Positions 11,346-43,469 of a DNA stretch of 46,145 nt are shown in pieces (position 1 is the stretch's first letter; each line of letters opens with the position of its first letter). The notes beneath the pieces are model-generated. The model was given only the letters and a program-made list of their open reading frames with translations, was not told where the DNA came from and searched no databases. The stretch spans positions 1 to 46,145 of the forward strand of contig CAIUZV010000200.1 of NCBI GenBank assembly GCA_903903735.1, read 5' to 3'. The stretch comes from an uncultured beta proteobacterium. GTDB taxonomy: Bacteria; Pseudomonadota; Gammaproteobacteria; Burkholderiales; Burkholderiaceae_B. Position numbers and translations under genes: made by a program.

Positions 11346-11557
11346 GCTCTGCCCCAAATGTTCTAAGTTTTTTAACAACAACTTGGATAATCATAAGCGA
11401 AAAACTAGTCTGTGCTTTTCCTAAAACACGACCCAGTAGCATATTGCCAAGGGCTGCCTTATGATTGCTTGATAAAAATCAAATCAAATAAATCCTTAGT
11501 CGCTACAGGCCACAGGCAACCATGCTTGCGCCCTCTATAACTTCCGGAGACCACGAC

Positions 11558-12541
11558 ATGCTTGGCCTTAACCGAATTCGCCCCACACTGGTGCTTCTGA
11601 CCTGTTTGTTTTTCATGCCTTTGCAGTCTGCACAAGCGCAAGGCACCTACCCACAAAAACCCATCAAAATCATCGTACCGGTCGCGGCAGGAGGCGGAAC
11701 GGATTTTGTCGCACGAGTGGTGGGTCAAAAACTAGGGGAAGCGCTCTCCACCCCCGTCATCATTGAAAATAGGCCTGGTGGTGCGGGCAATGTGGGCGTT
11801 GATGCGGCAGCAAAGGCCGACCCAGACGGCTACACCCTGGTCATGCCAATTACCTCGTTTTCGGTTAATCCCAGCCTGTATGCCAAGCTGCCCTTTGATA
11901 CACAAAAAGACTTCGCCCCAATTGCTTTGGTTGCGTCAGCCCCATTACTGTTGGTCGTCAACACTCAACTCCCTGTCAAAACACTGGGGGATCTAATCGC
12001 ACTGGCTAAGCAAAAACCCGGCACGCTCAACTATGGCACTTCTGGCGTTGGCACAACCTCGCATTTAGCGGCCGAGCTATTCAAATACAAAGCAAAACTC
12101 GACATTATCAACGTCCCTTACAAGGGCGGTGGGCCGATCGTCACTGATTTGATTGCGGGAAGTATTCAAATCTACTTCTCTACTGTTCCGGCGGCTTTAC
12201 CTCAAACACAGGCAGGTAAACTTCGCGCCATCGCCATCACGAGCCCCCAGAGAATACCGAGCCTCAGTGACATTCCAACAATGTCTGAAGCTGGCCTCCC
12301 CGGTTACGACGTCGTCGGATGGTTTGGACTATTTGCACCAGCCAAAACGCCAACTCCAATTATTGAACGTCTGAACACCGAGATCGTCAAGATTCTGCAA
12401 ATGCCTGATGTTCGGGAAAAGATCCAAGCGCACGGCTTATTACCCGGCGGCGGTAGTGCAAAAGAATTGGGCGTATTTTTGAATGCCGAGATCAAAAAGT
12501 GGAGTGAATTGATCAAAGCGGCCAACATCACCCCACAATAG
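11558..12541 (+). CDS. TctC/Bug-family periplasmic receptor (Bug 2)
   Basis: A receptor of 327 residues when started at the ATG at 11558. CGGAGA at 11545-11550 lies seven bases upstream, and this start leaves a standard Sec signal peptide ending in SAQAQ. An upstream in-frame ATG at 11522 would add 12 residues with no ribosome binding site. The mature part contains YPQKPIKIIVPVAAGGGTDFVAR, NRPGGAGNVGVDAAA, PDGYTLV and NVPYKGGGP. It stands alone, divergent from the dioxygenase gene and convergent with the dehydrogenase gene, whose stop lies 18 bases away. No membrane component is nearby. Confidence 0.93.
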   Translation: MLGLNRIRPTLVLLTCLFFMPLQSAQAQGTYPQKPIKIIVPVAAGGGTDFVARVVGQKLGEALSTPVIIENRPGGAGNVGVDAAAKADPDGYTLVMPITSFSVNPSLYAKLPFDTQKDFAPIALVASAPLLLVVNTQLPVKTLGDLIALAKQKPGTLNYGTSGVGTTSHLAAELFKYKAKLDIINVPYKGGGPIVTDLIAGSIQIYFSTVPAALPQTQAGKLRAIAITSPQRIPSLSDIPTMSEAGLPGYDVVGWFGLFAPAKTPTPIIERLNTEIVKILQMPDVREKIQAHGLLPGGGSAKELGVFLNAEIKKWSELIKAANITPQ

Positions 12542-13551: not shown

Positions 13552-14520
13552 TTACTTGTTTGATACCGAGGGCTTTAACAATCGTCGCCATATCTCGATT
13601 TCCGAACGCAAAAATCCATCAAATTCTTTGGGAGAGGAAACCTTTATCACTCCATCAATGACTGCCAACCGTCTCCCGACATCTGGATGTGCCAAACTTG
13701 TTTTAAGCGCTACGTTTATTTTCTCAATAATTTCGGATGGGGTACCAGCTGGTGCTAGCACTGCCCACCACACTACTGCCTCGAAACCGGGGTAGCCTTG
13801 CTCGGCAATAGTAGGAACGTCTGGCGCAGAGTTCAATCTCTGTAAACCTGACGTCGCAATTAAACGAATACGTTTCCCATCAAGTTGTGGCTTGAGTTGC
13901 GACATCCCGGTAAAGAGCATATCCACATGGCCACTAGCAACATCGAGCACGCCCTGGCCCGCACCCTTATAAGGCACCTTTGTGATTTTGATACCCGTTT
14001 TCTCCATAAACAACTCTACAGCCAAATCGGTCGCTGAGCCTTCACCCGATGTGGCGGTGGTTAATTTTCCTGGGTTCTTTTTTGCGTAGGCAACCAACTC
14101 AGGGATATTTTGGATAGGGGAGCCCGCATGAACGGCGACCCCCATTGCATAGGTAATCACCTGAGCAACTGGGGCGAAAGATTCGGGGGTCTTGTAAGGA
14201 AGGTTGGGTAAAAGTGTAGGATTCGTTGAAATGGTTGGACTTACTAATAGCAAGGTGTAGCCGTCCGGTGCTGCTTTAGCTACTTGCTCAGTGCCCACAA
14301 CAGTATTGCCGCCCCCTCGATTCTCAATAATCACGGGCTGCCTGATCACCTCGGACAGCTTATCGGCCCACGCTCGCGCGATGAAGTCACCGCCACCACC
14401 CGCTACAAAAGGTACAACTATTCGCAGGGGTCGCTCTGGATAGTTATCGGCTGGACTCGCGACGGTCCAAGCAGAAACAAACAGCGAGCTCAACAACAGT
14501 GCTATGTTTAAGGTTCGCAT
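13552..14520 (-). CDS. TctC/Bug-family periplasmic receptor (Bug 3)
   Basis: A 322-residue Bug receptor with a Sec signal peptide ending near residue 22 (VASPA) and mature motifs YPERPLRIVVPFVAGGGGDFIAR, GGNTVVGTEQVA, APDGYTLLL and KVPYKGAGQ. The usual GA-x-G segment after the first strand reads GGGNTVVG, a little divergent. It is divergent from the LysR gene across 86 bases and precedes the 2-hydroxyacid dehydrogenase gene. LysR proteins often control the divergent neighbour, so this receptor is a likely target. Confidence 0.93.
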   Translation of the reverse strand: MRTLNIALLLSSLFVSAWTVASPADNYPERPLRIVVPFVAGGGGDFIARAWADKLSEVIRQPVIIENRGGGNTVVGTEQVAKAAPDGYTLLLVSPTISTNPTLLPNLPYKTPESFAPVAQVITYAMGVAVHAGSPIQNIPELVAYAKKNPGKLTTATSGEGSATDLAVELFMEKTGIKITKVPYKGAGQGVLDVASGHVDMLFTGMSQLKPQLDGKRIRLIATSGLQRLNSAPDVPTIAEQGYPGFEAVVWWAVLAPAGTPSEIIEKINVALKTSLAHPDVGRRLAVIDGVIKVSSPKEFDGFLRSEIEIWRRLLKPSVSNK

Positions 14521-15592: not shown

Positions 15593-16369
15593 ATGCTGGC
15601 ATCACAGCGAGTGCGACTAAATATCCGAAACGGCACATTTCAGCAGCCAACGGCGGGGGCAGCCCCGGGGTTTGTTCAGGCCAACCTCGTCATCCTACCG
15701 AAAGCCTTAGCCAGCGACTTTCAATTATTTTGCCAACGCAACCCTAAACCTTGCCCAATTCTGGCTGTTGCCGATGTCGGCAGCACCTTTTTCCCGGGCT
15801 TTGGGGACAATTTAGATGTACGCACAGATATTCCGCGGTATCGGGTTTGGCGCGATGGCGAGTTGGTAGAAGAGGTGACCAACATCTCGCGCTTTTGGAG
15901 AGATGATTTAGTGAGCTTCGCACTTGGTTGCTCATTTTCCTTTGAAGAGGCACTCGTCGCTGACGGAATTGACGTTCGACACATTTCATGTGGTTCCAAT
16001 GTCCCAATGTACAAGAGCAATATCGCGACAGCGCCTGCAGGTCCATTTCATGGTCCGATGGTCGTATCCATGAGGCCTTTTAAAGCAGCCGACGCGATCC
16101 GAGCGATTCAAATCACATCAAAATTCCCCTCCGTTCACGGAGCCCCCGTACACCTCGGTGACCCAGCACAAATCGGCATTGCCGATTTATCAAAACCAGA
16201 CTTTGGTGAACCCGTACCTGTTGCACACGACGAAATTCCGGTTTTTTGGGCCTGCGGTGTCACCCCACAAGCCGTCTTGATGGCCTCAAAGCCTGATTTT
16301 TGCATCACACATGCCCCAGGCTACATGCTAGTGACGGACAAGCTCAACTCTCAACTATCCATTATTTGA
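15593..16369 (+). CDS. DUF1445 / UPF0317 protein, D-glutamate-cyclase-like hydro-lyase
   Basis: A 258-residue cytoplasmic protein matching the DUF1445 (UPF0317) family, whose vertebrate member is D-glutamate cyclase, converting D-glutamate to 5-oxo-D-proline. Recognisable segments are [33 protein letters not shown] at about 26-58, the polar run [16 protein letters not shown] at about 77-92, [13 protein letters not shown] at about 109-121, and the C-terminal [26 protein letters not shown]. Length equals the usual bacterial size. GGGAGA precedes the ATG by seven bases. It is the first gene of an operon with a TRAP importer and a DUF2848 gene, so its substrate is likely the imported molecule or a product of it. 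Bacterial members have no proven universal activity, so the reaction remains an inference. Confidence 0.9.
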
Positions 16370-16393
16370 CGATAACTATTTTTAGGCTGTTCC

Positions 16394-16425
16394 CTGTATC
16401 GACGCTAAGCGGGTAACCGATACAG
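16394..16425. promoter_or_regulatory. Intercistronic inverted repeat between DUF1445 and dctP-like genes
   Basis: CTGTATCG (16394-16401) and CGATACAG (16418-16425) form a perfect eight-base inverted repeat with a 16-base spacer, followed by ATTTTCTT. It ends 31 bases before the DctP-like start codon. It may act as a weak attenuator, an mRNA-stabilising hairpin for the highly expressed receptor gene, or an operator. Confidence 0.5.
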
Positions 16426-16456
16426 ATTTTCTTCCCGTTAATTAGGAGATGCTTTC

Positions 16457-17503
16457 ATGAAAATGCTGATGCTCGCAGTAGTTAGTGCTGCAACACTCAT
16501 GGCGACAAACGTCGCCGCGCAAGACCTGCCTCGTACACAACTTAAAGTCGTTGGGGGCCTGAACAACCTCACAGCCTATAAAGACTTTGAGCAGCCTTTT
16601 TGGACAAAGACAATACCCGAAGCATCGAAAGGACGGGTCACTGCTGACATCCAAGGCTTTAACCAAATGGGACTTAAAGGTCCTGAACTGATGCGACTCA
16701 TTGGTCAGGGAGTTATTGAGTTTGGGACGGCGACCCTTTCCTATTTCGCCAGCGACAACCCCATCAATGAAGCAATCGATCTTCCTGGCTTAGCTCCCGA
16801 TGTAAAGACGGCGCGTGAAATCACCGATCTTTTTGCCCCCATTTACGGAAAACTCTACGGTGGGAATAACAACGTAAAGATTCTTGGTTTGTCACCCTAC
16901 CCTGCTCAGGTTATTTTTTGTAACGCACCAATAAAAGATCTCACCGATCTAAAGGGTAAAAAAGTACGTACAAGTAGCCGGACTCAGGCAGAGTTTATTC
17001 AAGCTCTCGGCGGCACAAGCGTCACCCTGGCGTTTGGTGAAGTTGTCCCCGCATTGCAAAACAAGGTTGTGAATTGCGCGATCACTGGATCCCTCTCTGG
17101 CTACTCGGCAAAGTGGTACGAAGTATCCACGCATCTTTTGGCGCTGCCAATCAACTGGAATCAGCAAATTCATGCAGTAAACCAAAAAGCTTGGGACAAA
17201 ATCGATCCAAAAGTTCAGTCCTTCTTGCAGACCAACATCAATACTTTGATGACAACCATGTGGAATGCTGCGAACGAACAAACAGAGCAAGGCTATGCCT
17301 GCAATACGGGTTCGCCTGGATGTCCTTTTGACGTAAAAGGGAAAATGACGCTAGTCAAACCGTCAGAGGCAGACAAGGCATTGCTCAACAAGCTACTCGG
17401 CGACGTTATTTTGCCTAAGTGGGCGGCGCGCTGCTCAGATCAATGTGTGGCAGATTTCAATGCCACGATCGGTAAAAAACTTAACGTTACTGCAAAGAAG
17501 TAA
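16457..17503 (+). CDS. TRAP transporter periplasmic receptor, DctP family
   Basis: A 348-residue receptor with a Sec signal peptide (cleavage after NVAA, about residue 21). The mature protein carries WTKTIPEASKGRVTADIQGFNQMGLKG and the DctP core LKGKKVRTSSRTQAEFIQALGGTSVTLAFGEVVPALQNKVVNCAI at about 170-215. In that core the arginine of KVRT is the usual carboxylate-binding residue. Four cysteines near the C-terminus (YACNTGSPGCPF and RCSDQCVAD) probably form disulfides in the periplasm, an unusual addition for DctP. AGGAG lies eight bases before the ATG. It is followed 11 bases later by the DctQ gene and forms a full tripartite secondary importer driven by an ion gradient. Confidence 0.93.
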   Translation: MKMLMLAVVSAATLMATNVAAQDLPRTQLKVVGGLNNLTAYKDFEQPFWTKTIPEASKGRVTADIQGFNQMGLKGPELMRLIGQGVIEFGTATLSYFASDNPINEAIDLPGLAPDVKTAREITDLFAPIYGKLYGGNNNVKILGLSPYPAQVIFCNAPIKDLTDLKGKKVRTSSRTQAEFIQALGGTSVTLAFGEVVPALQNKVVNCAITGSLSGYSAKWYEVSTHLLALPINWNQQIHAVNQKAWDKIDPKVQSFLQTNINTLMTTMWNAANEQTEQGYACNTGSPGCPFDVKGKMTLVKPSEADKALLNKLLGDVILPKWAARCSDQCVADFNATIGKKLNVTAKK

Positions 17504-17514
17504 TAGGCAAACGT

Positions 17515-18123
17515 ATGGGCACTCAATCGCACAGTATGCTGCCATGGGCAACTAAGATCTCTCGCTGGGGAGTCTGGGGTGGTGGCATCCTCACGCTATT
17601 GAGTGCCGGCCTTGTTTGTTTTGATGTAATTGTCAGAAAGCTGTTTGCGATATCACTTGGCGGAGCGGACGAATTATCTGGATACGCGTTCGCCATCAGT
17701 ACAACCTGGTCACTCGCGCTAGTCGTACTCGAGCGCGCAAACGTTCGAGTCGATATTCTTTATCAGCACTTCTCGGTACGCGTGGCAGCAATGCTCGACT
17801 GGCTTTCCTTAGTCGCGCTGGCTGTGTTTCTAACCATGCTTACTCGCTACGCCTATGAAGTGCTTGCCACGTCCTGGATTCAAAATTCGTTTGCCAATAC
17901 GCCGCTCGCAACGCCTCTTTGGATACCGCAGGGGCTGTGGTTTGTTGGTCTAGTTTGGATGGTGATTGTGTTGGCCTTGATGCTGACTCGGGCCAGTGGT
18001 AGCTTAATCACCGGCGATTATCAAAGCGTCAATCGCTTGGCCGGTGCGCGACTCTCCAAAGAAGAAGCGCTTGAAGAAGCGCAAGCGGGACAACGTCGTG
18101 TGCAAGAGGAGCGCGGATCATGA
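17515..18123 (+). CDS. TRAP transporter small membrane subunit, DctQ family
   Basis: A 202-residue protein with four hydrophobic segments, at about residues 20-45, 55-80, 95-120 and 135-160, the normal DctQ topology. SLGGADELSGYAFAISTTWSLALVVLERANVRVDIL is the family's conserved region (GADELSGY near residue 45, then ERANVRVD). The C-terminal tail of about 35 residues is charged (EEALEEAQAGQRR) and cytoplasmic. It overlaps the DctM gene by four bases (ATGA), so the two membrane subunits are translationally coupled. Confidence 0.93.
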   Translation: MGTQSHSMLPWATKISRWGVWGGGILTLLSAGLVCFDVIVRKLFAISLGGADELSGYAFAISTTWSLALVVLERANVRVDILYQHFSVRVAAMLDWLSLVALAVFLTMLTRYAYEVLATSWIQNSFANTPLATPLWIPQGLWFVGLVWMVIVLALMLTRASGSLITGDYQSVNRLAGARLSKEEALEEAQAGQRRVQEERGS

Positions 18124-19400
18124 TCTCAACTGCACTGACTCTCTTATTGATCCTGATCGGCCTGAGCATCCCTGTTGGTGCGGCACTAGGAGTGCTCGGC
18201 CTTGTTTTGGATCAGATATATTCCATGCTGCCTCTGTCTCGGGCGATGGGTGAACTGGCTTGGACCACGAACACCGAATTCCTACTCGTCGCAATTCCGT
18301 TGTTCATTATGCTCGGAGAGATTCTTTTGCGAGCAGGCTTTGCAGAGCGCATGTACTCTGCTCTCAGTCTTTGGTTATCATGGCTGCCGGGCGGTCTGAT
18401 GCATGCAAATATTGGTGCCTCCGCTCTGTTTGCGGCCACCTCGGGCTCCAGTGTCGCCACGGCTGCCACTGTAGGGACAGTAGCACTGCCACAGATAAAA
18501 AAATATGGCTATAACGAGCCACTCTTTTTGGGCAGTATTGCGGCCGGCGGAACCCTTGGAATTTTAATCCCGCCTTCGATCAATTTGGTTATCTATGGCG
18601 TGCTGACGAATTCTTCAGTGCCAAAGCTCTACCTAGCAGGAATTATTCCTGGGCTGCTTTTGGCGCTCCTGTTTATGGCGACGATTGTGTTTGCCTGCAT
18701 CGCAAAACCTCAATGGGGCGGTGAGCGAATTCACGCGACATGGGCCCAGCGATTTAAATCCTTGGTTCACCTAGTGCCCCCAATGGGAATTTTCTTACTC
18801 GTTGTTGGCTCAATTTATGCTGGTGTAGCGACGCCAACGGAGGCTGCGGCTCTAGGTGTTTTTGGTGCGATGGCGTTGGCTGCCGCCTACCGACGCTTGA
18901 GCATTGCGATGATGCGTGAGTCTATCGAAAACACGATGCGCGCTTCAGCAATGATCATGCTTATCGTGATTGGCGCGAGCTTTCTAAACTTTGTGATGTC
19001 TGCGACAGGTCTAACTACCGCATTGACCAATGCAATATCGGGACTCGGCGTCTCTGCGCAATGGATGCTAGTGATCCTTATAATATTTTATTTGGTGCTC
19101 GGGTGCTTCATGGAAACCTTATCGATGATGATCACAACGATTCCGATTGTGGCGCCCGTCATGATTGCTCTGGGCTACGACCCGATCTGGCTTGGGATCG
19201 TTATTATCGTACTCGTCGAAGCAGCCTTGATCACCCCACCTGTCGGGCTGAATCTGTTCGTTGTGCAAAGTCTGCGATCGAGCGGTTCGATGACTCCGGT
19301 GATCGTGGGATCACTGCCTTTTGTTGTTGCAATGCTTGCCTTGTTGGCCCTTTTAGCGGTCTTTCCCGACCTTGCGCTTTGGATGACTAGATTTTTTTGA
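18120..19400 (+). CDS. TRAP transporter large membrane subunit, DctM family
   Basis: A 426-residue polytopic membrane protein with about 12 membrane segments, the transport channel of the TRAP complex. Typical DctM segments include LLVAIPLFIMLGEILLRAGFAERMY near residues 58-80, SGSSVATAATVGTVALPQIKKYGYNEPL near 110-137, GTLGILIPPSINLVIYG near 145-160 and ITPPVGLNLFVVQSL near 370-384. The glycine- and proline-rich re-entrant segments that bind sodium ions and substrate are preserved. It sits between the DctQ and DUF2848 genes with gaps of minus four and plus seven bases. Confidence 0.95.
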   Translation: MISTALTLLLILIGLSIPVGAALGVLGLVLDQIYSMLPLSRAMGELAWTTNTEFLLVAIPLFIMLGEILLRAGFAERMYSALSLWLSWLPGGLMHANIGASALFAATSGSSVATAATVGTVALPQIKKYGYNEPLFLGSIAAGGTLGILIPPSINLVIYGVLTNSSVPKLYLAGIIPGLLLALLFMATIVFACIAKPQWGGERIHATWAQRFKSLVHLVPPMGIFLLVVGSIYAGVATPTEAAALGVFGAMALAAAYRRLSIAMMRESIENTMRASAMIMLIVIGASFLNFVMSATGLTTALTNAISGLGVSAQWMLVILIIFYLVLGCFMETLSMMITTIPIVAPVMIALGYDPIWLGIVIIVLVEAALITPPVGLNLFVVQSLRSSGSMTPVIVGSLPFVVAMLALLALLAVFPDLALWMTRFF

Positions 19401-19407
19401 GAACCCT

Positions 19408-20091
19408 ATGAATCTACTTTTTGATCTGATACACAACAATACAGTAACCAAAATACAGACAAACATTGAACAAATGATTATCGCGGGCTGGGCTGGCCGA
19501 GATCATGCTGCGATTGAACACCACATTGAAGAGCTTGCAGCCATTGGCGTTCCACGTCCGAGCTCCGTGCCTTTGTTTTATCGTGTATCGAATCAGCTTC
19601 TTACCCAAGACGCCACCGTACAAATGGTTGGCAACGAGGGCTCAGGCGAGGTCGAAGTGTTTGTGTTTATACACAACGATCAATTATTGATTTCGCTCAC
19701 CTCCGACCATACTGATCGCGGCCTGGAAACAGTAAGTGTGGCACTCTCTAAGCAAGTTTGTAGCAAACCCGTTGGACGACAGGCTTGGCTATTTTCAGAT
19801 GTCGCAGCACACTGGGATCAATTGCTGATTGAATCCTACATCTACGAAAACGGAACGCGCGTGCTGTACCAATCGGGGCCTTTATCCTCTTTGCTGCCGC
19901 CCCTTGATCTGATTTCACGTTACACGAAACACAATACGCTACCTACTGGTACCGCGATGAGCTGCGGTACGGTCGGCACGCGTGGGGCGATACGTCCCTC
20001 ACCCAAGTTTGAGATGCGCTTGGTTGATCCAATCCGTCAGTGTGAATTGGCGCACAGCTACCAAATTGAGGTGCTGGACAAGGTTTCGTAG
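19408..20091 (+). CDS. DUF2848 family protein (fumarylacetoacetase-like fold)
   Basis: A 227-residue cytoplasmic protein of the DUF2848 family. Characteristic segments are IAGWAGRDHAAIEHHIEELAAIGVPRPSSVPLFYRVS at about 27-63, SGEVEVFVFIHNDQLLISLTSDHTDRGLE at about 80-108, SVALSKQVCSKPVGRQAWLFSDVAAHWDQL near 111-140, and a C-terminal MSCGTVGTRGAIRPSPKFEMRLVDP. The SDHTDR and Gly-Glu motifs resemble the metal-binding arrangement of fumarylacetoacetate-hydrolase-like enzymes. Family members usually stand next to importers of organic acids, as here, where the start follows the DctM stop by seven bases. Its reaction is unknown; hydrolysis or decarboxylation of the product of the DUF1445 protein is a reasonable guess. 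It is convergent with the flavoenzyme ORF. Confidence 0.85.
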   Translation: MNLLFDLIHNNTVTKIQTNIEQMIIAGWAGRDHAAIEHHIEELAAIGVPRPSSVPLFYRVSNQLLTQDATVQMVGNEGSGEVEVFVFIHNDQLLISLTSDHTDRGLETVSVALSKQVCSKPVGRQAWLFSDVAAHWDQLLIESYIYENGTRVLYQSGPLSSLLPPLDLISRYTKHNTLPTGTAMSCGTVGTRGAIRPSPKFEMRLVDPIRQCELAHSYQIEVLDKVS

Positions 20092-20115
20092 CACTCACCC
20101 TGCACAAGGCCTCAG

Positions 20116-20541
20116 TTAGTCAGGTAGACCGATCGCCTTCAGAGCTGCCTCAGCACATTCCATGTCCTGAGAATAATGACCGCCGCTCAAGCCAATGCCG
20201 CCAATCATCTGGCCATTCTCCATGATCGGATAGCCACCACCAAAAATAATGAATCTAGGTGTGTGGACGAGGCCGTGAATCAATGGCGCATCATCTTTGA
20301 TGTACTCGTGCCATTTATGCGTTGGTATCCCGCCAGATATCGCTGTATGCGCCTTATCCTGAGCGATTTGCAACGAGATGAGCGATGCACCATCCATTCG
20401 GACAAACGCCTTCAGGTGCCCTGCCGCATCGCAGATAGCAATCGACATATTTACCTTTAACGCATTCGCTTTTTCGCGCGCTGCTTTGATCGCTTTCAAG
20501 GCGGTATCTACATCTATATTACGTACGGTTGTGCTCGACAT
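20116..20541 (-). CDS. Possible independently translated HbpS/GlcG-family (DUF336) protein
   Basis: An internal ATG at 20541 is preceded by AAAGGAG with GGAG at 20551-20548, six bases upstream, an ideal Shine-Dalgarno arrangement. Starting here gives a 141-residue protein, exactly the usual size of stand-alone HbpS/GlcG proteins. Its segments AICDAAGHLKAFVRMDG, AQDKAHTAISGG, FIIFGGGYPI and IGGIGLSGG are the family hallmarks. HbpS of Streptomyces binds haem; GlcG lies in the glycolate operon, and the role of most members is unknown. The upstream flavoenzyme has no stop codon before it in this frame, so fusion and separate translation are both possible. I favour a distinct gene that either lost, or appears to have lost, its upstream stop. 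Confidence 0.6.
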   Translation of the reverse strand: MSSTTVRNIDVDTALKAIKAAREKANALKVNMSIAICDAAGHLKAFVRMDGASLISLQIAQDKAHTAISGGIPTHKWHEYIKDDAPLIHGLVHTPRFIIFGGGYPIMENGQMIGGIGLSGGHYSQDMECAEAALKAIGLPD

Positions 20542-22548
20542 TGGTATCTCCTTTCTAAAATTAATGTAACGACCTACAGAATTACCCGCTTTATGCCCAT
20601 CCCGTGTCGCGCCCATCAATCCTCGCGCTACACGGCAATCCCCCACAAGATAAAGTTCGACATCATGTGCTTTTAAAGGTTCAACAAGATCTACGTTAGC
20701 CGCACGTGGCGTCGAATAAGACAGAAAAGAAATATTTTCGATTCGTCCAAGATCTCCGTTGTAAACATTTTTATACTCAAGCACACCGTCTTCGAAATGC
20801 TCGGACCACACTGGCTCACTCATGACGAGCATTTCTACTCTTGCCACAGACAGCCGGCGCAAAATCCCTTGTCGAGTCACCAACGACTCATCCTGAGCAA
20901 TCAACGCGCGAGGCGTCATCAGTACAACTCGCTCAAAGCGCTGCGCCAAGAGCTCTACCGCTGCATAAGTGCCTTCCGTGTGGTCCATGTCATAGACCAC
21001 AGCCGTTCCCGCCTGCCGCGAAGAGAGCTTGACGACTTCTTGCATGGCAGTATGCAAGTCAGTCACCCATCCCTCGCGGGCAATCTCAGCCGGGACCCAT
21101 TCGGGACAATGCATTGTGCCACCCGTTGCTAAGACCACAGAGTCGGGAGACAAAGACAAAATATCTTGTAGGCTAGCTCGCACACCAAGGCGAATATCTA
21201 CCCCTGCCCGCTGGGCACAAACCATCTGATAATCATAAATACTCGTGATGGTCTCACCACCGGGCAGTCTTGCACGCAATCGAGCCTTGCCACCAACCTC
21301 AGACCCAGTCCCAAACAACGTCACCGAATGACCTCGTGCGGCAGCGACCCAAGCCGCCTCCATTCCCGCAATACCCGCGCCGACCACCACAACGCGATGC
21401 TTGCGTCGCGCGGGCTTTGGCCACCAGTCAACCTCTCTCTTCTCTGCCACGCGAGGGTTATTGACGCAAGCCAAGGGTTCCCCATACGTAATAATGGTGT
21501 CCCAACAGTTATTACAGGAAATGCAGTAACGAATATCGTTTGTTCGACCTTGCATGGCTTTGTTATACCAAGCCGGATCTGCCAATAATGTGCGGCCCAT
21601 TCCGATTAAGTCCGCATCACCGCGCGTCAAGATTCCTTCTGCTTCAGCAGGGTCAGTGATACGTCCGAGCGCCATCACAGCGACGCCATTGCAAGAGGCT
21701 TTCAACGATTTAATTAAGTCGATGTACGGGACATTTGCGCCATTGCGATCTGGCACATGCGTTTCAAGTGAGCGCGCGTGCGCCCCTTGCGCAAAGCAGA
21801 CATAGTCCACCTCTTTAGACCTCGTAAAGAGGTCAGCTAAAACCGCCGCCTCCTCGGGCCCAATACTCTTTGGAATACCGTCATTACTCGGTAACTTCAA
21901 CCCAATGATGAAGTGTCGACCGCATAAATCGCGAATACAGCTTATCAATTCGCGTACAAAGCGTGTGCGGTTTTCCCAATCACCACCGTACTCATCGGTC
22001 CGACGGTTTGACCATGGCGACATGAATTGGCTGAACAAATGTCCGTGGGCTCCAGACAGTTCAACGCCACTAAAACCACAACGTTGTAGACGCGCTGACG
22101 ACATCGCAAAGTCAGCAATCAGATTTTTTATTTCAGCGCCTGTCAAGGCGTGAGGCATCGTCCAGCTCAAATCATCTGGCAATGCAGAAGGAGCGAGCGC
22201 GCTGTAATTTCGGCCGGCATCATGATGGCCTCGACCAGGATCTTGGATTTGACCAAGAAGCCGGCAATCATGGCGCTCGACTGCATCAGCCCAACGCTTG
22301 AGCCCACCTAAGTTGTCATCATTCCAGGCACGGATACGCGCAGGGTTTGTTTGATGCGGCGCCATCAGCAGAGGCTCGGTCACGATCAGTGCCGCGCCGC
22401 CTTTTGCGCGATTCTCGTAGTACTGGATTTGACGATCGCTTACTTGAGATTGATATCCCATGTGGGTCGTCATGGACGCATGAGCAACCCGATTACGTAA
22501 CCGCTTGCCGGCTAAGACAAGCGGTTCAGAGAGCAACGACTCTATCAC
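20116..22548 (-). CDS. TMADH/FadH-type FMN-FeS-FAD oxidoreductase reading in frame into an HbpS/GlcG domain
   Basis: An 810-codon frame. Residues 1-380 form an Old Yellow Enzyme barrel with FMN. The [4Fe-4S] cysteines are Cys342, 345, 348 and 361, with C-x2-C-x2-C-x12-C spacing as in trimethylamine dehydrogenase. The FAD/NAD module begins at about 385 with VVVVGAGIAGMEAAW and runs to about residue 662. Residues 670-810 are an HbpS/GlcG (DUF336) domain. In the OYE active site the usual proton-donor tyrosine of the GYL motif appears as His170 (SGAHGHL), and the first ligand residue is Ser165. The GTG at 22548 is the only reasonable start and follows the TctC-like stop by seven bases. Relatives reduce enoyl compounds or demethylate amines. 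The linker looks like a ribosome binding site, so this may be two genes (see the internal entry). Confidence 0.85.
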   Translation of the reverse strand: MIESLLSEPLVLAGKRLRNRVAHASMTTHMGYQSQVSDRQIQYYENRAKGGAALIVTEPLLMAPHQTNPARIRAWNDDNLGGLKRWADAVERHDCRLLGQIQDPGRGHHDAGRNYSALAPSALPDDLSWTMPHALTGAEIKNLIADFAMSSARLQRCGFSGVELSGAHGHLFSQFMSPWSNRRTDEYGGDWENRTRFVRELISCIRDLCGRHFIIGLKLPSNDGIPKSIGPEEAAVLADLFTRSKEVDYVCFAQGAHARSLETHVPDRNGANVPYIDLIKSLKASCNGVAVMALGRITDPAEAEGILTRGDADLIGMGRTLLADPAWYNKAMQGRTNDIRYCISCNNCWDTIITYGEPLACVNNPRVAEKREVDWWPKPARRKHRVVVVGAGIAGMEAAWVAAARGHSVTLFGTGSEVGGKARLRARLPGGETITSIYDYQMVCAQRAGVDIRLGVRASLQDILSLSPDSVVLATGGTMHCPEWVPAEIAREGWVTDLHTAMQEVVKLSSRQAGTAVVYDMDHTEGTYAAVELLAQRFERVVLMTPRALIAQDESLVTRQGILRRLSVARVEMLVMSEPVWSEHFEDGVLEYKNVYNGDLGRIENISFLSYSTPRAANVDLVEPLKAHDVELYLVGDCRVARGLMGATRDGHKAGNSVGRYINFRKEIPMSSTTVRNIDVDTALKAIKAAREKANALKVNMSIAICDAAGHLKAFVRMDGASLISLQIAQDKAHTAISGGIPTHKWHEYIKDDAPLIHGLVHTPRFIIFGGGYPIMENGQMIGGIGLSGGHYSQDMECAEAALKAIGLPD
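20542..20553 (-). promoter_or_regulatory. Shine-Dalgarno site inside the flavoenzyme-HbpS ORF
   Basis: On the minus strand AAGGAGATACCA lies immediately before the ATG at 20541. In the third frame TAA (20563-20561) and TAG (20557-20555) lie just upstream. One deleted base near the flavoenzyme's 3' end would therefore explain the missing stop codon. Confidence 0.7.
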
Positions 22549-22555
22549 TTTAGTT

Positions 22556-23560
22556 TTACTTCAGTCGACCAGTTTTTACATAGAACGCACGTTCGGCCTG
22601 AGCCATTTTGTCGAGTTCAGCAGCCGCTGTCGCAGGGTTGGTCAAGAGCGGGTCCGAGTATGCGCCTAACTTTGCAAACTCTGCAGCTAACGCGGGGGTT
22701 CGTACCGCAGCGTTAATTGTGGCCGCCAGATAGGCCTTGCGGTCTGCCGGCGTTCCTTTCGGGACGACAGCTAAACGGATGATGTTCCAAACGATATCTT
22801 TTGTACCAAAGATTTCGTTGAAGGTTGCGACATCCTTCATGTTGCCGAGCCGACTGGCGCTCGCCACAGCAATAGGCTTGACCTGATCAGCTTGTAGATA
22901 GCTTTCAAATTCGCCGTAAAAGCCTTGTGCAATGTCTACGTTTCCACCCAACAAAGCGACTACACCTGGCTTACCGCCCTGAAATGGAACGCGCAAGAAT
23001 TTAGCGCCTGTGGCGGCTTCGATCTGATCAATCAGATATTCCCACATACTGCCGGGAACAATTGCAACGCGCACAGTGCCAGGCTTATCCTTCGCAGTCT
23101 GGACGATCTCTTTAGCAGACTTTCCAGCGAACGGACCTTTTGTGGCGGCCACCCAGGCAAGTGCGTCACTATTGATATAGGCAATTGTTTCCAAGTTTGA
23201 CAAAGACCACTTATCCTTGCCGCGCAGCATTGCATCGCCCCAAACTAGGTTAGCCAGGATACCGACCGTGTAACCATCTGGCTTCGCTTGTGTGGCGAGA
23301 TAGGTGTGGCCGACCATTCCAGCTCCACCTGTACGATTGTTCACCAAGATCTTGTCACCGCTTACTTGTTCGGCATACTTGCCTAGCTGGCGTGCTGTGA
23401 GATCCATTCCTCCACCAGCCGGGTACACCACCGTGTACTCAATTGACTGGGTCGGGAAATCTTTAGGCTTTAATTTCGCTACATCAGGCGATACTTGTGC
23501 AACGGCTGTTGCGGCTGCCACTGCAGCAATCGCACCAATAAAAGAGTGGATCAATTTCAT
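22556..23560 (-). CDS. tctC: Periplasmic receptor of the TctABC transporter (Bug 4, TctC)
   Basis: A 334-residue TctC-family receptor with a Sec signal peptide ending near AVAQ (residue 22). It is a divergent member. The first strand reads QSIEYTVVYPAGGGMDLTARQLGKY, there are about 15 extra residues (VSPDVAKLKPKDFPTQ) before it, and the loop NRTGGAGMVGHTYLATQAKPDGYTVGIL is typical. Binding-site segments VPFQGGKPGVVALLGGNVDIAQ follow. The start ATG abuts the TctA stop codon (TAA then ATG), and GGAG at the end of tctA serves as its ribosome binding site. It is the only Bug receptor in the window with its own membrane subunits, so it is the best candidate for a true three-component carboxylate importer. 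The symbol is by family, not by proven citrate binding. Confidence 0.92.
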   Translation of the reverse strand: MKLIHSFIGAIAAVAAATAVAQVSPDVAKLKPKDFPTQSIEYTVVYPAGGGMDLTARQLGKYAEQVSGDKILVNNRTGGAGMVGHTYLATQAKPDGYTVGILANLVWGDAMLRGKDKWSLSNLETIAYINSDALAWVAATKGPFAGKSAKEIVQTAKDKPGTVRVAIVPGSMWEYLIDQIEAATGAKFLRVPFQGGKPGVVALLGGNVDIAQGFYGEFESYLQADQVKPIAVASASRLGNMKDVATFNEIFGTKDIVWNIIRLAVVPKGTPADRKAYLAATINAAVRTPALAAEFAKLGAYSDPLLTNPATAAAELDKMAQAERAFYVKTGRLK

Positions 23561-25054
23561 TTATATGTCTCCTCCGGGTTGATTCAACTTTCGTTGACGA
23601 AAAACTAGTACTGCCAAAATTAAACTTATACCAATCAAACACGCTGCGATGGGCCTCTCCGCAAAAATAAACATACCATGCGGAGACATCACCATCGACT
23701 GTCGCAGCGACTGCTCAAGCATCGGAGCCAGTACAAACGCGATCAAGAACGGTGAGAACTCGTACTGTAATTTACGCAGGACATAGCCCACGACACCAAA
23801 GCCAAGCATGACCCACAAATCGAAAACATTTTTGTTAGCAGAATATGTTCCGACTACAGCCAATAATAGGATCAAGGGAAACAATACCCGATATGGCACC
23901 CTAAGGCACTGTACCCACAAACCGATCAGGGGCAAATTCAGGAGCAGCAAGAAGACGTTGCCTACGTACATGCTTGCGACGACACCCCAGAATAAGTCCG
24001 GTCGCTGGGTGATGAAAGTTGGGCCTGGCTGCACACCTTGAATGACTAAGGCCCCAAGCAGTAAGGCCGTGACAGCATTGCCTGGTATGCCCAGGGTAAA
24101 CAGTGGGATCATTCCCCCGGACACGGCTGCATTGTTTGCAGCTTCTGGACCCGCAACGCCCTCGATTGCCCCTTTACCAAAACGCTCAGGATTTTTTGCT
24201 AACCGCTTCTCGAGCGTATAAGACACAAACGATGCCGTGACAGGACCACCGCCCGGCACGAGCCCAAGAAAAAACCCTAAGAAGCTGCCGCGCATCATGG
24301 GCTTCCAGGAGGCCTTCCAATCTTTGAACGAGGGCCAAAGTCCACGAACTTTTTCCGCGAGCAACTGATTCTTTACGATGGTCTCACAGTTTGTGAGAAT
24401 TTCCGAAACACCATACAGACCGATCACCACCGATAGGATCTCAATCCCTCCAGCAAGATTGACGTTGTTTAGAGTGAACCGATCTTGGCCGTTAACGATG
24501 TCCATCCCAACGGTTGCGGCAAGAAACCCAAGGGCAATCATTAGGACGCCCTTCACTTTCGATCCACCGATCATATACAGCGTCGATACAAGCCCAAGTA
24601 CCATCAACCCAAAGTTCTCAGGCGGACCAAAACTAATCGCAACGGAGGCCAATAAGGGAGAAAAGAAAGTCAAAGCGACTAGGGAGATGGTGCCAGCAAT
24701 AAACGAACCAATCGCTGCGATCCCAAGTGCAGAGCCCGCTCGACCTTGCCTGGCCATCGCATGCCCGTCTAAGGCAGTCACGACTGACGCCGCTTCGCCA
24801 GGAATATTTACCAAGATGGAGGTTGTTGATCCACCATACATTGCGCCATAAAAAATTGCACAAAGCATGCCTAGTCCAGCGACTGGGGCTAACTGAAAGG
24901 TGACGGGCAACAAAAGCGCTAAGGCAGCAAGAGGTCCAATTCCTGGCAGTACGCCAACCAAGGTGCCAACCAGACTTCCGAGAAAACAGAAGTACAAATT
25001 TTCAGGTGTAAACAACACCGAAAATCCCATCGCTAAACCATTGATTGCGTCCAT
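23561..25054 (-). CDS. tctA: Tripartite tricarboxylate transporter large membrane subunit TctA
   Basis: A 497-residue polytopic protein, the normal TctA length, with about 12 membrane segments. Conserved regions are GSLVGTLVGVLPGIGPLAALALLLP at about 26-50, AIFYGAMYGGSTTSILVNIPGEAASVVTALDGHAMARQGRAGSALGIAAIGSF at about 65-117, and PGGGPVTASFVSYTLEKRLAKNPERFGKGAIEGVAGPEAANNA near 266-308. These glycine-rich inverted-repeat regions form the transport core. The frame extends to a TTG at 25060, but the ATG at 25054 overlaps the TctB stop as TGATG, the usual coupling in these operons, so I take that start. It moves the ligand delivered by the downstream receptor across the inner membrane using an ion gradient. 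Confidence 0.96.
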   Translation of the reverse strand: MDAINGLAMGFSVLFTPENLYFCFLGSLVGTLVGVLPGIGPLAALALLLPVTFQLAPVAGLGMLCAIFYGAMYGGSTTSILVNIPGEAASVVTALDGHAMARQGRAGSALGIAAIGSFIAGTISLVALTFFSPLLASVAISFGPPENFGLMVLGLVSTLYMIGGSKVKGVLMIALGFLAATVGMDIVNGQDRFTLNNVNLAGGIEILSVVIGLYGVSEILTNCETIVKNQLLAEKVRGLWPSFKDWKASWKPMMRGSFLGFFLGLVPGGGPVTASFVSYTLEKRLAKNPERFGKGAIEGVAGPEAANNAAVSGGMIPLFTLGIPGNAVTALLLGALVIQGVQPGPTFITQRPDLFWGVVASMYVGNVFLLLLNLPLIGLWVQCLRVPYRVLFPLILLLAVVGTYSANKNVFDLWVMLGFGVVGYVLRKLQYEFSPFLIAFVLAPMLEQSLRQSMVMSPHGMFIFAERPIAACLIGISLILAVLVFRQRKLNQPGGDI

Positions 25055-25494
25055 CACCAACCCCAGGGGCCACGAGGCAAAGACATGCCGAGCAAATGGC
25101 CAAACACGTACACAATCACTGAAACCGACACGAGCGTCAAGACCACTGACTCTAGTACACGAGAACGCTCAATTGTTTGCAGCAAAACGAACGTTGTCAG
25201 TGCGCTGGAAATCGCAAAGCCTAAGTAAGGCAGCGTCACGGTCAAACCAACGAGTCCACCCAACACACCCAGTATGCGGCGGCGACCTGTGGAGGCCGGC
25301 CACTCAGGATTTTCTACCCGTGTTGACTTCTTGATCATCAACAGCAGGCCACACAAGGTAATGATGACCCCGCAAATCATCGGGAAGAGGCCACTGTCTG
25401 GACCCATAGATCCAAACAGTCCCAGCGTCCAAGCATTCACCATGGTTGCCAAACCCAGCACGACCCAAAGCAAATTTAATCCGTGCTCAATCAC
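25054..25494 (-). CDS. tctB: Tripartite tricarboxylate transporter small membrane subunit TctB
   Basis: A 146-residue protein with four hydrophobic segments, at about residues 8-25, 35-52, 72-95 and 115-140, the TctB topology. SMGPDSGLFPMICGVIITLCGLLLMIKK at about 29-56 matches the family's conserved GPGxFP-type start region. It begins with GTG at 25494, 33 bases after the racemase-like gene, and its stop overlaps the TctA start. TctB is a required small partner of TctA. Confidence 0.9.
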   Translation of the reverse strand: MIEHGLNLLWVVLGLATMVNAWTLGLFGSMGPDSGLFPMICGVIITLCGLLLMIKKSTRVENPEWPASTGRRRILGVLGGLVGLTVTLPYLGFAISSALTTFVLLQTIERSRVLESVVLTLVSVSVIVYVFGHLLGMSLPRGPWGW

Positions 25495-33249: not shown

Positions 33250-34278
33250 ATGGTTTCGGTTTATTCGTGTAATCCACGCGCTCAGAAGCGCTTTTCATTC
33301 AAAGCAGCTGCACGGTTGGCAGGCTTGACGCTCTTTACCAGTCTCAGCTTGTCCCTTGCTCAAAGCAGTCTTGCCCAAACCTTTCCTGATAAGCCCCTAA
33401 AAATTGTTGTGGGCTTTCCTCCTGGCGGGGGGTCAGATCTGATGGCGCGTACGGTTGCTGAACGCCTCTCGCCTTTGATCGGCCAACCTGTGATTGTTGA
33501 TAATAAGCCAGGTGCAGGTTCGACGATTGCTGCGTCGTTCGTCGCGAAATCAAAGCCTGACGGCTACACCATTCTATTTGGGCAAGCGGCAAACCTGGGC
33601 ATTGCGCCGGCAATGATGTCCACGCTTAACTACGATCCAATTAAAGACTTCGCACCCATTACGCGCTTAGCCGCCGCACCGCTACTTGTCGTTGGTCCAA
33701 CAACGCTTGCTGCGGCCGACATGAAAGAGGTTATTACGCTTGCCAAAGCAAACCCAAACAAACTGAGTTTCGGTTCGCCCGGCTCTGGGACACTGGGGCA
33801 CTTAGCCGGAGAGATGTTCGTGAGCCAAGCGAAAATCAAGGCCGTGCACGTCCCCTATAAGGGCCAGTCTGCCGCGATTACTGACATCATCGGCAATCGG
33901 GTGGAACTTTACTTCAGCACCATTGCAGTGATCAGCCCACACGTAGAAAGCGGTCGCATCAAGGCGTTTGCGATTACCTCAAAAGAGCGGTCGCCCAGCT
34001 TCCCCGACGTACCAACCGTTGCCGAGTCGGGTCTGCCTGGCTATGAGGCAGAAAATTGGTATGCACTGCTCGCTCCTGCAGGCACGCCCCCCGCGATCGT
34101 AGACCGCCTTAACCGAGAGCTGAAGAAAATCCTCAGCTCACCAGACTTCGTCAAAGAAATTGCGAAGGAAGGTGGCCGCACAGTTGGCGACTCACCAGCA
34201 GAATTTGCAAAATTTCTAAGCATCGATGTACCACGATGGCAGAAAATCGTACGTGAAGCAGACCTTAAAACCAACTAG
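33250..34278 (+). CDS. TctC/Bug-family periplasmic receptor (Bug 5)
   Basis: A 342-residue Bug receptor with a long Sec signal peptide (about 1-42, ending SSLAQ). The Arg/Lys-rich n-region is unusually long, about 20 residues, so a start at a later codon is possible, though AGGAGA lies upstream of the chosen ATG. The mature part contains FPDKPLKIVVGFPPGGGSDLMAR, NKPGAGSTIAASFVA, KPDGYTILFG, GHLAGEMF and HVPYKGQSA. It is the tail-to-tail neighbour of Bug 6, only two bases separating the two stop codons. There is no adjacent TctA or TctB. Confidence 0.93.
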   Translation: MVSVYSCNPRAQKRFSFKAAARLAGLTLFTSLSLSLAQSSLAQTFPDKPLKIVVGFPPGGGSDLMARTVAERLSPLIGQPVIVDNKPGAGSTIAASFVAKSKPDGYTILFGQAANLGIAPAMMSTLNYDPIKDFAPITRLAAAPLLVVGPTTLAAADMKEVITLAKANPNKLSFGSPGSGTLGHLAGEMFVSQAKIKAVHVPYKGQSAAITDIIGNRVELYFSTIAVISPHVESGRIKAFAITSKERSPSFPDVPTVAESGLPGYEAENWYALLAPAGTPPAIVDRLNRELKKILSSPDFVKEIAKEGGRTVGDSPAEFAKFLSIDVPRWQKIVREADLKTN

Positions 34279-34280
34279 CT

Positions 34281-35285
34281 TCAGTTAGTACTCATCGGGG
34301 TACGGTCAACGACTTTACCCCACTTGACGATCTCAGTAGCAATAAAGCTATTGAGTTGTTCGGGAGTGCTCGTAACGGGCGTAGCGCCTTCACGCTCAAA
34401 GCGCTGGATCAAATCTGGTGACTTCATTGCCTGAGCAATTGCCGCATTGAGCCGTTCAACGACGACTGGGGGTGTGCCCTTCGGTGCAAGCAACGCATTC
34501 CAAGTATTGATCTCGTAGTCTGGTAGCTTCGCGGCCTCTGCTATGGTTGGCGTGTTTGGAATCTCTTTTGAGCGCGTTGCTGTGGTGACCGCAAGCACAT
34601 TCAACTTACCCGCCTGTACGTGAGGTAGCACCCCGGGTAAGGTGGCAAAAGTCAACTGTGTATCGCCTGCGATGACCGATGTATTCGCTAAGGCACCTCC
34701 CTTAAAGGGGATGTGCACAATATCCAGCTTCATTGCGTCGTTAAACATGGCCGCAGCAAGGTGTCCAGGAGACCCATTACCGCTTGACGCGTAATTCAAC
34801 TTACCAGGATTCTTGCGGGCATAGTCAACGAACTCGGCGAGCGTTTTGACGGGCAACTTAACGCTCGTCACTAATGCAAGCGGTATCGAGGCAACTAACG
34901 AAATCGGCGCAAAGTCCTTGATGGGATCAAAAGTCAGTTTGCCTTTGTAGAGGGCCGGATTAATACCGTGACTCGCAACAGTGGCCATATAGAGCGTATA
35001 GCCATCAGGCTTTGACTGCGCCACATACGCTGCACCAATATTGCTTGCTGCGCCAGGCTTATTATCCACAATGATGGTTTGCCCGAGGATTTTGCCCATT
35101 TGCTCACCGAGTGAACGAGCCAAAATATCTGTCGTTCCACCTGCCGCATATCCTACGACGATCCGAATCGGCTGATTAGGAAAGTTTTGTTGTGCATGAA
35201 CACCGACTGTCACGCTCAGCAAGGCAAGTGTCGCGGCACTACGCAACACCATGGCAGGCAATAGTTTATTCAATGTACGTTTCAT
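34281..35285 (-). CDS. TctC/Bug-family periplasmic receptor (Bug 6)
   Basis: A 334-residue receptor. The Sec signal peptide ends at about residue 31 (VHAQ). The mature part has FPNQPIRIVVGYAAGGTTDILAR, NKPGAASNIGAAYVA, KPDGYTLYMA, PGHLAAAMFND and HIPFKGGALANT. The last gene of the long minus-strand series starting at Bug 8; the glycosyltransferase gene ends 71 bases before it, with an 18-base tandem duplication in that gap. It is clearly only a distant relative of its convergent neighbour Bug 5. Confidence 0.93.
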   Translation of the reverse strand: MKRTLNKLLPAMVLRSAATLALLSVTVGVHAQQNFPNQPIRIVVGYAAGGTTDILARSLGEQMGKILGQTIIVDNKPGAASNIGAAYVAQSKPDGYTLYMATVASHGINPALYKGKLTFDPIKDFAPISLVASIPLALVTSVKLPVKTLAEFVDYARKNPGKLNYASSGNGSPGHLAAAMFNDAMKLDIVHIPFKGGALANTSVIAGDTQLTFATLPGVLPHVQAGKLNVLAVTTATRSKEIPNTPTIAEAAKLPDYEINTWNALLAPKGTPPVVVERLNAAIAQAMKSPDLIQRFEREGATPVTSTPEQLNSFIATEIVKWGKVVDRTPMSTN

Positions 35286-36914: not shown

Positions 36915-37883
36915 TTAGCCCGCCTTTAAACCAGATTTCTGGATAATATTTTTATACATCTCGACATCTTTAGTGATTTTCTTAGCAAATTCTGAAGGTG
37001 ACAATCCGACTTCAAGCATGCCTTGTTGCTTGAGCTTTTCTGCGATGCCTTCGGACTTCATCAGTTTTTGAATATCCTGATACAGCTTTTCTACCAATGC
37101 GGGTGGCATATTCGCTGGCCCTAAGAATCCAAGCCAAGTAGAGATATCAAAACCCGCATAGCCCGATTCGATCATCGTTGGCGCACTAATAAAAGCACGT
37201 TTGCTGGTGGTTAACGCAAGCGCACGGACTTTGTCTGCATTGATATAAGCAATCACTGAAGGCAACGTAGCGAAGGTCATCTGAACATGACCTGCCAGCA
37301 AATCAGCGATCACTGCTCCACCACCCTTGTAGGGAATGTGGGTTATCTCAACACCCGCTGATTGCTTGAACAACTCTGCCGCCAAGTGTCCGCCCGTACC
37401 GTTCCCAGGGGACGCATAACTGATCTTTGTTGTGTTACTGCGTATCAGCGCCTCGAGCTCTTTCGCTGTACTGGCCTTTACGCTCGGGTGAACCACCAGC
37501 ACATTCGGCAATTCAGCAGCCAGCGTGATCGGCGTGAAGTCCTTTTCTACATTAAACGGAAGCTTGTTCGACATCCCCGGACTAATCACAAAGGCGCTAC
37601 TCGTCAACAGCATGGTGTAACCATCAGGCTCTGAGCGCGCCACCGCCTCTGCACCAATATTCCCACTCGCGCCAGCGCGGTTCTCAACAACGACCGGCTG
37701 TCCCCACATATCAGCCAGGCTAGCACTCAGCGTGCGCGCGAGCATATCGGCCCCACCACCGGGCGCAAAAGGCACAATGATCTTCACGGGCTTTTCGGGA
37801 AATTTTTGGGCGCATACGGCAGAACTGGCTACCGCAAGACCAATTGAAACCAATATGCTGCTTACGCGTTGAAGAAGTTTCAT
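36915..37883 (-). CDS. TctC/Bug-family periplasmic receptor (Bug 7)
   Basis: A 322-residue receptor with a Sec signal peptide ending near residue 25 (AVCAQ). Mature motifs are FPEKPVKIIVPFAPGGGADMLAR, NRAGASGNIGAEAVA, EPDGYTMLL, GHLAAELF and HIPYKGGGA, all canonical. The gene starts three bases after the MmgE/PrpD stop codon and is followed by the glycosyltransferase gene. Its substrate may be the carboxylic acid handled by the MmgE/PrpD protein. Confidence 0.94.
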   Translation of the reverse strand: MKLLQRVSSILVSIGLAVASSAVCAQKFPEKPVKIIVPFAPGGGADMLARTLSASLADMWGQPVVVENRAGASGNIGAEAVARSEPDGYTMLLTSSAFVISPGMSNKLPFNVEKDFTPITLAAELPNVLVVHPSVKASTAKELEALIRSNTTKISYASPGNGTGGHLAAELFKQSAGVEITHIPYKGGGAVIADLLAGHVQMTFATLPSVIAYINADKVRALALTTSKRAFISAPTMIESGYAGFDISTWLGFLGPANMPPALVEKLYQDIQKLMKSEGIAEKLKQQGMLEVGLSPSEFAKKITKDVEMYKNIIQKSGLKAG

Positions 37884-43347: not shown

Positions 43348-43424
43348 GCGTAGTCTCCTAAAAATATAAGAATTATTTTGTATTCCTGTGCCCGATGTTA
43401 CGGCGGCAAACCAGAGGGTGCAAT

Positions 43425-43436
43425 GGGCAATTGCCC
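43425..43436. promoter_or_regulatory. Perfect palindrome upstream of the Bug 8 / TAXI-TRAP operon
   Basis: GGGCAATTGCCC is a 12-base perfect palindrome lying 77 bases before the Bug 8 start codon. Position and symmetry fit a dimeric repressor or activator site. No regulator gene adjoins it. Confidence 0.4.
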
Positions 43437-43469
43437 TGTCTTCACCAGGCATGAAAGACCAGAGGCAAG

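Follow-up and report, generated by a model that had tools for sequence, protein, structure and literature searches.

Does an open reading frame (ORF) that joins a flavoenzyme to an HbpS-like domain make one protein or two? The question is raised by a contig of an uncultured beta proteobacterium (CAIUZV010000200.1 of assembly GCA_903903735.1; 46,145 nucleotides, hereafter the window), whose minus strand carries 810 uninterrupted codons between positions 20116 and 22548. HbpS/GlcG/DUF336 proteins occur in many catabolic operons and have no settled role, and a covalent link to one enzyme makes that role a testable question with a named partner. A preliminary description of this DNA had considered a very young fusion, a gene with two products, or a sequencing error. 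We think it likely that the gene is a stop-loss fusion in which an internal start continues to yield free HbpS. The part of this proposal that can be read directly stands, in that the internal Shine-Dalgarno (SD) sequence and start codon are conserved in all six fused genes, while the two proteins themselves are predicted from sequence.

The reading frame was as first described, and Pfam recognized three parts in its product: Oxidored_FMN (PF00724, aa 8-336, 192 bits against a cut-off of 27), an NAD(P)/FAD part from aa 385 (PF07992, 28.3 bits, cut-off 26.1) and an HbpS-like domain (PF03928, aa 679-803, 130.1 bits, cut-off 25), confirming the join of a flavoenzyme to an HbpS domain. Near the GRYI position, where it had been proposed to look for enzyme ends, all 17 flavoenzyme relatives with an intact end (52-60% identity) terminate opposite aa 658 in the alignment; a further relative (L029), cut by its own contig, is outside this count. 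Thus, 11 residues, GRYINFRKEIP, lie between the usual end of the enzyme and the HbpS Met. The junction reads GGT CGT TAC ATT AAT TTT AGA AAG GAG ATA CCA ATG on the minus strand. As previously noted, the linker codons hold an SD sequence, AAAGGAG, followed by a 6-nt spacer and the ATG of a 141-aa HbpS, and TAA (20563-20561) and TAG (20557-20555) lie upstream in the frame offset by two; both stops are present in all six fused orthologues.

Within the genus, six of the 32 genomes carry the ORF, in each case fused and uninterrupted. Besides the window, the carriers are Zwartia hollandica LF4-65 (L042, a strain record not marked as a metagenome-assembled genome) and four metagenome-assembled genomes (MAGs), with ORFs 94-98% identical to that of the window and each without interruption; the 810-residue arrangement, earlier named as a search target, is thus present in five further assemblies. 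The remaining HbpS matches within the genus do not exceed 39% identity (two short pieces excepted) and represent different genes. The incompleteness of the window's assembly (461 contigs, 80% complete) might raise the suspicion of a sequencing or assembly error, as the preliminary description did. However, the same open ORF in five other assemblies, one of them the named strain with a 1-Mb contig, rules this out, and we give it next to no probability.

The proportion of differing synonymous sites (pS) in the flavoenzyme part was 0.77-0.80 between the window's clade and the L012/L013 clade, near saturation, so that the fused state is older than a substantial divergence. The suggestion of a very young fusion is therefore not supported as stated, since the fusion is older than the separation of two clades whose synonymous differences approach saturation, and a very recent event was rejected on this basis. 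The fused state is nevertheless confined to 6 of 32 genomes. The rate of synonymous substitution (dS) between L012 and L013 was about 2, with a non-synonymous rate (dN) of about 0.05 or less, and dN/dS within the window's clade was 0.028-0.055.

An unfused orthologue was found in another genus of the same family (L183, genus G886), where a 664-aa flavoenzyme (61% identity to the window) and a 141-aa HbpS (66%) are encoded by separate genes, with TctB (32%), TctA (72%) and TctC (56%) upstream. In the enzyme tree, L183 groups as sister of the fused six (support 99/97; the fused six themselves, 100/100); the other eight G886 genomes gave no match to 1e-100. The preliminary description had allowed that all relatives might encode two separate proteins; the orthologues found are the six fused genes and this one unfused pair. 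The two L183 genes are in the same frame, the distance from the aligned residue (Val658 or Leu) to the HbpS Met is 11 codons as in the fused gene, and the TGA stop aligns without gaps on the Arg660 codon. The HbpS ATG of L183 is preceded by an SD-like CGGAG (-6.6 kcal/mol).

The L183 arrangement is likely to represent the ancestral state, and its shared frame, its 11-codon spacing and the position of its TGA suggest that the fusion most likely arose by substitution of the stop codon, with the spacing unchanged, rather than by loss of a base. The lost base proposed earlier was rejected as unsupported, given the frame and spacing of L183. The Arg660 codon is CGT in the window and AGG in L012/L013, and both codons of the two fused clades would be reachable from TGA via CGA, AGA or CGG.

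The internal start stands out among potential starts of its surroundings. In a survey of ten partly overlapping loci of the genus, which included every fused gene but that of L040, AAGGAG or AGGAGG was found 4-10 nt upstream of 5 of 917 in-frame internal ATGs. All five are the orthologous HbpS site, and none of the other 912 has such a six-base SD; such SDs are uncommon at gene starts as well, with 4 among 137 mechanically picked first starts. In all six genes, the energy of anti-SD pairing with the 16S tail was -8.7 kcal/mol at the internal ATG, whereas the 5′ start gave values between -0.5 and -1.4. Only 0-2% of the windows of the gene are less strongly folded than the mRNA at the internal start, again in six of six. 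The 5′ start itself is GTG in most of the genes, has almost no SD in any of them and lies 7 nt past the tctC stop in the window.

We then asked whether this site could be a relic. If the gene were no more than a fixed fusion, the long chain alone would matter and the SD-like stretch would be left over from the old hbpS start, encoding a short linker. Such a relic is indeed expected after stop-loss fusion of operon neighbours, and the linker is kept as protein, with 10 of its 11 residues invariant in the six genomes. A relic should, however, drift synonymously over a near-saturated divergence. Among the six orthologues, 567 of 692 codons for conserved degenerate amino acids vary, yet TTT AGA AAG GAG (F-R-K-E) and the Pro codon CCA are invariant in all six. 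Across the 2418-nt alignment, no other stretch of invariant nucleotides is as long as TTTAGAAAGGAGA (13 nt, against 11 for the runner-up), and no other series of synonymously fixed codons equals its four (the second-longest has 3). The probability of fixation of all five codons was 3.5e-4, as the product of residue-specific invariance rates with the site itself excluded. Together with a 5′ start far weaker than the internal one, this makes the simple fusion unlikely. An SD and an ATG, the latter conserved in six of six, appear to be kept in frame under synonymous constraint, the pattern predicted for a gene with two products.

Constraint of this kind might also be produced by a pausing signal between the domains that aids folding of the flavoenzyme, and the stretch does sit at the domain border. 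We consider this improbable: an ATG at the canonical distance is kept in all six genes, the mRNA is weakly folded at the site, and the HbpS ATG lies at the same codon in the unfused L183.

A further question is whether the long chain is made at all. At Arg660, Tyr661 and Asn663 the residue is kept while codons vary (Arg CGT/AGG, Tyr TAC/TAT), as expected if the linker is translated. If there were no constraint, and the tree length is taken to be 2-4 changes per site, the linker would have escaped stop-creating changes with a probability of 0.001-0.04 over its whole length and of 0.07-0.26 outside the SD codons. It could be argued that the fused chain is hardly made, due to the weak 5′ start, a frameshift into TAA/TAG or proteolysis of the linker, leaving mostly separate proteins; the conservation of the two offset stops in all six genes, as well as the weakness of the 5′ start, would fit. 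Nevertheless, those stops follow from the codons TAY ATT AAY TTT AGA, no slippery heptamer was seen at the junction (read by eye), and the behaviour of the linker codons is that of translated sequence, leaving this explanation very improbable.

We propose the following scenario for a fusion with two products. The ancestral operon would have ended in tctC - flavoenzyme - TGA - hbpS, the last two genes in one frame and 11 codons apart, and in one lineage of the genus the TGA would have become an Arg codon. Ribosomes starting at the weak 5′ start, probably by translational coupling to tctC, would make the 810-aa flavoenzyme-HbpS chain of about 88 kDa, while the old hbpS SD and ATG, now within the frame and kept by selection, would still start the 141-aa free HbpS of about 15 kDa. 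Both proteins are thus predicted to be made, the free HbpS probably being more abundant than the fused chain.

It should be noted that a number of observations weigh against this interpretation. The six carriers reduce to roughly three deep lineages. Taken alone, the invariance of the five codons is modest, and one other AGA column is likewise invariant. By pairing energy, the HbpS site is less exceptional than by the six-base SD count: of the window's 303 internal ATGs, six attain -8.0 kcal/mol, and the five besides HbpS do so via G-rich stretches lacking GGAG. The 5′ start region is also folded below the gene average, though less so than the internal start, and A+T-richness may be a partial cause of the weak folding. 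That no stops arose outside the SD codons argues only weakly for selection on the fused frame itself and would be no more than supportive. The direction of change rests on one outgroup, which leaves room for compensating indels or the reverse direction, and no Amdase gene, which heads the presumed operon in the window, was found in the 19 kb examined near L183.

The enzyme part has the domain content (Oxidored_FMN plus a C-terminal NAD(P)/FAD domain) that places it by prediction in the trimethylamine dehydrogenase (TMADH)/2,4-dienoyl-CoA reductase type. Its closest sequences in the PDB are 2,4-dienoyl-CoA reductase (1ps9), NCR, and histamine and trimethylamine dehydrogenases. 2,4-Dienoyl-CoA reductase and trimethylamine and histamine dehydrogenases share a layout of FMN, 4Fe-4S and FAD/NAD(P); they are distant matches and, in contrast to the fused protein, have no HbpS domain. 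C342, C345, C348 and C361, which we take to be putative ligands of the 4Fe-4S cluster, are present in all six fused proteins. The six fused enzymes and most close relatives have HGH where 1ps9 has EGY and TMADH has HSY. The Tyr of this position, presumably with a role in the active site, is absent from the fused enzymes; a 43%-identical relative (L164) has HGY. The score for mycofactocin OYE 2 (TIGR03997), 442 bits, was under the cut-off of 793, placing the enzyme outside that family.

Two side observations concern related enzymes. Nine paralogues in the genus (L017-L023, L025 and L026) have YCVGGNTCW or YCVSGNTCW in place of the YCISCNNCW of the fused enzymes, with Gly at the position of C345; their Fe-S cluster may be altered or missing. 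The window's own genome also has a 43%-identical flavoenzyme fragment (L003, G000:C159:5-835) with three in-frame stops over the matched stretch, which may reflect either the gene's end or its decay.

The closest PDB sequences to the C-terminal domain are NahX (9jth, the nearest), EfgA, the PduO domain and 2a2l, the last named OrfY in the excerpt of PMC4923194. Besides L183, the unfused HbpS proteins nearest to the fused one among the matches listed at class and order level are L128 and L129 (50%), L130 (48%) and L050 (47%). Several HbpS genes of this group have catechol 2,3-dioxygenase (C23O) and aldehyde dehydrogenase neighbours (L128/L168 and L129/L169, and the less similar L056/L114, 44%, and L055/L113, 40%). 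In L113, L114 and L168, C23O precedes the HbpS gene and aldehyde dehydrogenase follows it; L169 has the same order with one opposite-strand gene in between. Of 11 rows first labelled meta-cleavage, seven have both neighbours, L052 and L054 have one, and L133 and L135 have neither.

In a tree of 39 HbpS rows, built without NahX and L183, a 17-row meta-cleavage clade (96/97) excludes the fused HbpS. Both C23O and aldehyde dehydrogenase were found in the examined flank for 11 of the 17 clade rows, compared to either one for none of the 18 other unfused rows. We had considered the fused HbpS to be of NahX type; the tree places it outside the meta-cleavage clade, and L183 was then found as its likely orthologue. 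The term NahX-like thus denotes similarity of sequence here, not predicted membership. HbpS-like genes beside C23O and aldehyde dehydrogenase recur across several bacterial families. The searches made did not find a function for the 17-row clade, nor was one for NahX given in the titles or abstract openings of the open-access papers listed for it. According to the excerpt of PMC8153426, EfgA binds formaldehyde and DUF336 genes are noted in several catabolic clusters. Octamer formation and the binding of heme, cobalamin or a small aldehyde are properties reported for such relatives as PduO, HbpS and EfgA.

Why should a cell keep both products? Upstream of the fused gene lie genes for a Tct transporter and an Amdase-family protein (Table 1), which suggests a small carboxylate as the substrate. 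The operon order Amdase-TctB-TctA-TctC-fused gene is complete in four of the five relatives, the L040 contig being too short to show it. In the excerpt of PMC4923194, the C-terminal domain of PduO forms an octamer with heme, and the whole protein must accommodate an enzyme domain at its N-terminus. Because HbpS-family proteins form such octamers, free and fused subunits may co-assemble, giving a mixed oligomer with few flavoenzymes on an HbpS core, in which the free subunits would make room for a bulky fused one. This is our top candidate reason for two products, albeit a tentative one that we would rate somewhat short of an even chance. It is possible, but doubtful, that the HbpS part holds a ligand, a cofactor or a reactive flavoenzyme product in the uptake and breakdown of a Tct-imported small carboxylate. 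More speculative still is the idea that an HbpS-family protein acts as a subunit of a TMADH-class flavoenzyme, the mixed oligomer scaffolding a few enzymes and taking over a reactive product, heme or flavin electrons. If this were true, members of the HbpS/GlcG/NahX family would share a role alongside redox enzymes, and this lineage would show a step from operon neighbours to a stoichiometry-controlled fusion via stop-codon substitution. The unfused orthologue, the fused orthologues and the retained internal start form a natural series for the fusion of operon neighbours with the second product kept.

Known systems offer partial parallels. The CcmM58/CcmM35 pair of beta-carboxysomes, as presented in the excerpt of PMC8580825, is a working analogue for a long and a short product; the proteins are unrelated, and in our case both products are predicted, in an arrangement most likely reached by stop loss between operon genes. 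The long and short isoforms of AerR likewise involve an in-frame internal start with an SD-like sequence in the coding region, but AerR is a regulator with a CTG start and offset promoters, and has an N-terminal extension where our gene has a second, fused domain (both points from the excerpt of PMC6199135). PduO has an HbpS-like domain C-terminal to an enzyme, and this domain with heme is octameric in isolation, whereas the enzyme is an adenosyltransferase and the excerpt of PMC4923194 does not mention an internal start. NahX and the meta-cleavage HbpS proteins are similar in sequence, but are encoded by separate genes and form a clade without the fused HbpS. Dual-product genes as such are already known; no title or abstract among those listed from one open-access library reported the flavoenzyme-HbpS fusion.

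A second fused case was sought in class-, order-, family- and phylum-level genome samples, which overlap. None was present among the matches listed for the HbpS query in 369 class-level genomes outside the genus, and none was seen at the order level, where 399 genomes were searched with HbpS to 1e-20 and with the flavoenzyme to 1e-150, or when the whole sequence was searched to 1e-140 in 268 genomes at the family level and 398 at the phylum level. A scan of genome contigs, which detects close relatives only, likewise gave no case outside the genus. Of 2660 matching plasmid records, 165 match over at least 80% of the query, and none among the 30 listed extends past aa 707. Flavoenzyme matches with frames long enough for a fusion (L158/L120, L159/L179, L184, L185 and L187) had no HbpS match in the stretch examined. 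The long open frames at the HbpS matches L128, L138 and L140 proved by eye to be other genes overlapping in other frames, with no flavoenzyme fusion. An Old Yellow Enzyme (OYE) gene near the L116 HbpS was also set aside, being about 3 kb away with catalase- and transporter-like genes (named by eye) between.

Table 1. Features of the window (nucleotide positions; codons and residues refer to the 810-aa product)
Feature	Position	Strand	Basis and remarks
Fused ORF, flavoenzyme + linker + HbpS-like	20116-22548	minus	810 aa; GTG start
Flavoenzyme part, aa 1-658	20575-22548	minus	Pfam, C-termini of relatives, alignment; FMN barrel, four Cys, NAD(P)/FAD domain
Linker GRYINFRKEIP, aa 659-669, 11 codons	20542-20574	minus	Orthologue alignment
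Arg660 codon	20569-20571	minus	Gap-free alignment to L183 TGA; one outgroup only
Internal SD AAAGGAG	20548-20554	minus	6 nt ahead of ATG; core of longest invariant DNA run
HbpS-like domain, predicted free product of 141 aa	20116-20541	minus	ATG 20541-20539; Pfam; ATG in 6/6; HbpS ATG of L183 at same place
TctC, tripartite tricarboxylate transporter receptor	22556-23560	minus	Pfam, synteny; same operon
TctA	23561-25060	minus	Pfam, synteny; same operon
TctB	25054-25494	minus	Pfam, synteny; same operon
Arylmalonate-decarboxylase family (Amdase), PF17645	25528-26250	minus	Pfam; first gene of presumed operon
TctC-family receptors	2506-3513, 11522-12541, 13552-14520, 22556-23560, 33250-34278, 34281-35285, 36915-37883, 42376-43452

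Some further observations were made at this locus. One concerns positions 15593-20290. Over roughly the final 50 codons of the fused gene, the window is closer to L012, differing at 8 of 46 synonymous codons, than to its own clade, with 25-26 of 47. The convergent DUF2848/TRAP/D-glutamate cyclase genes downstream match L042, with DctM matching L041 as well; they were not found in the examined flanks of L038-L040 (less than 1 kb for L040). A recombination junction is likely to lie inside the HbpS part of the window gene. L038 and L040 (CAMBFI010000010.1 and CAMBPA010000211.1) are titled as MAGs of 'Bordetella parapertussis', while kinship and the fused operon place both in the window's genus; the titles of these records look wrong. 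Of the 38 window ORFs scanned, eight encode TctC-family receptors, and just one of these has TctA and TctB genes beside it among those ORFs. Finally, positions 4150-5070 of the window encode a protein of the histone-deacetylase family (PF00850, 203 bits).

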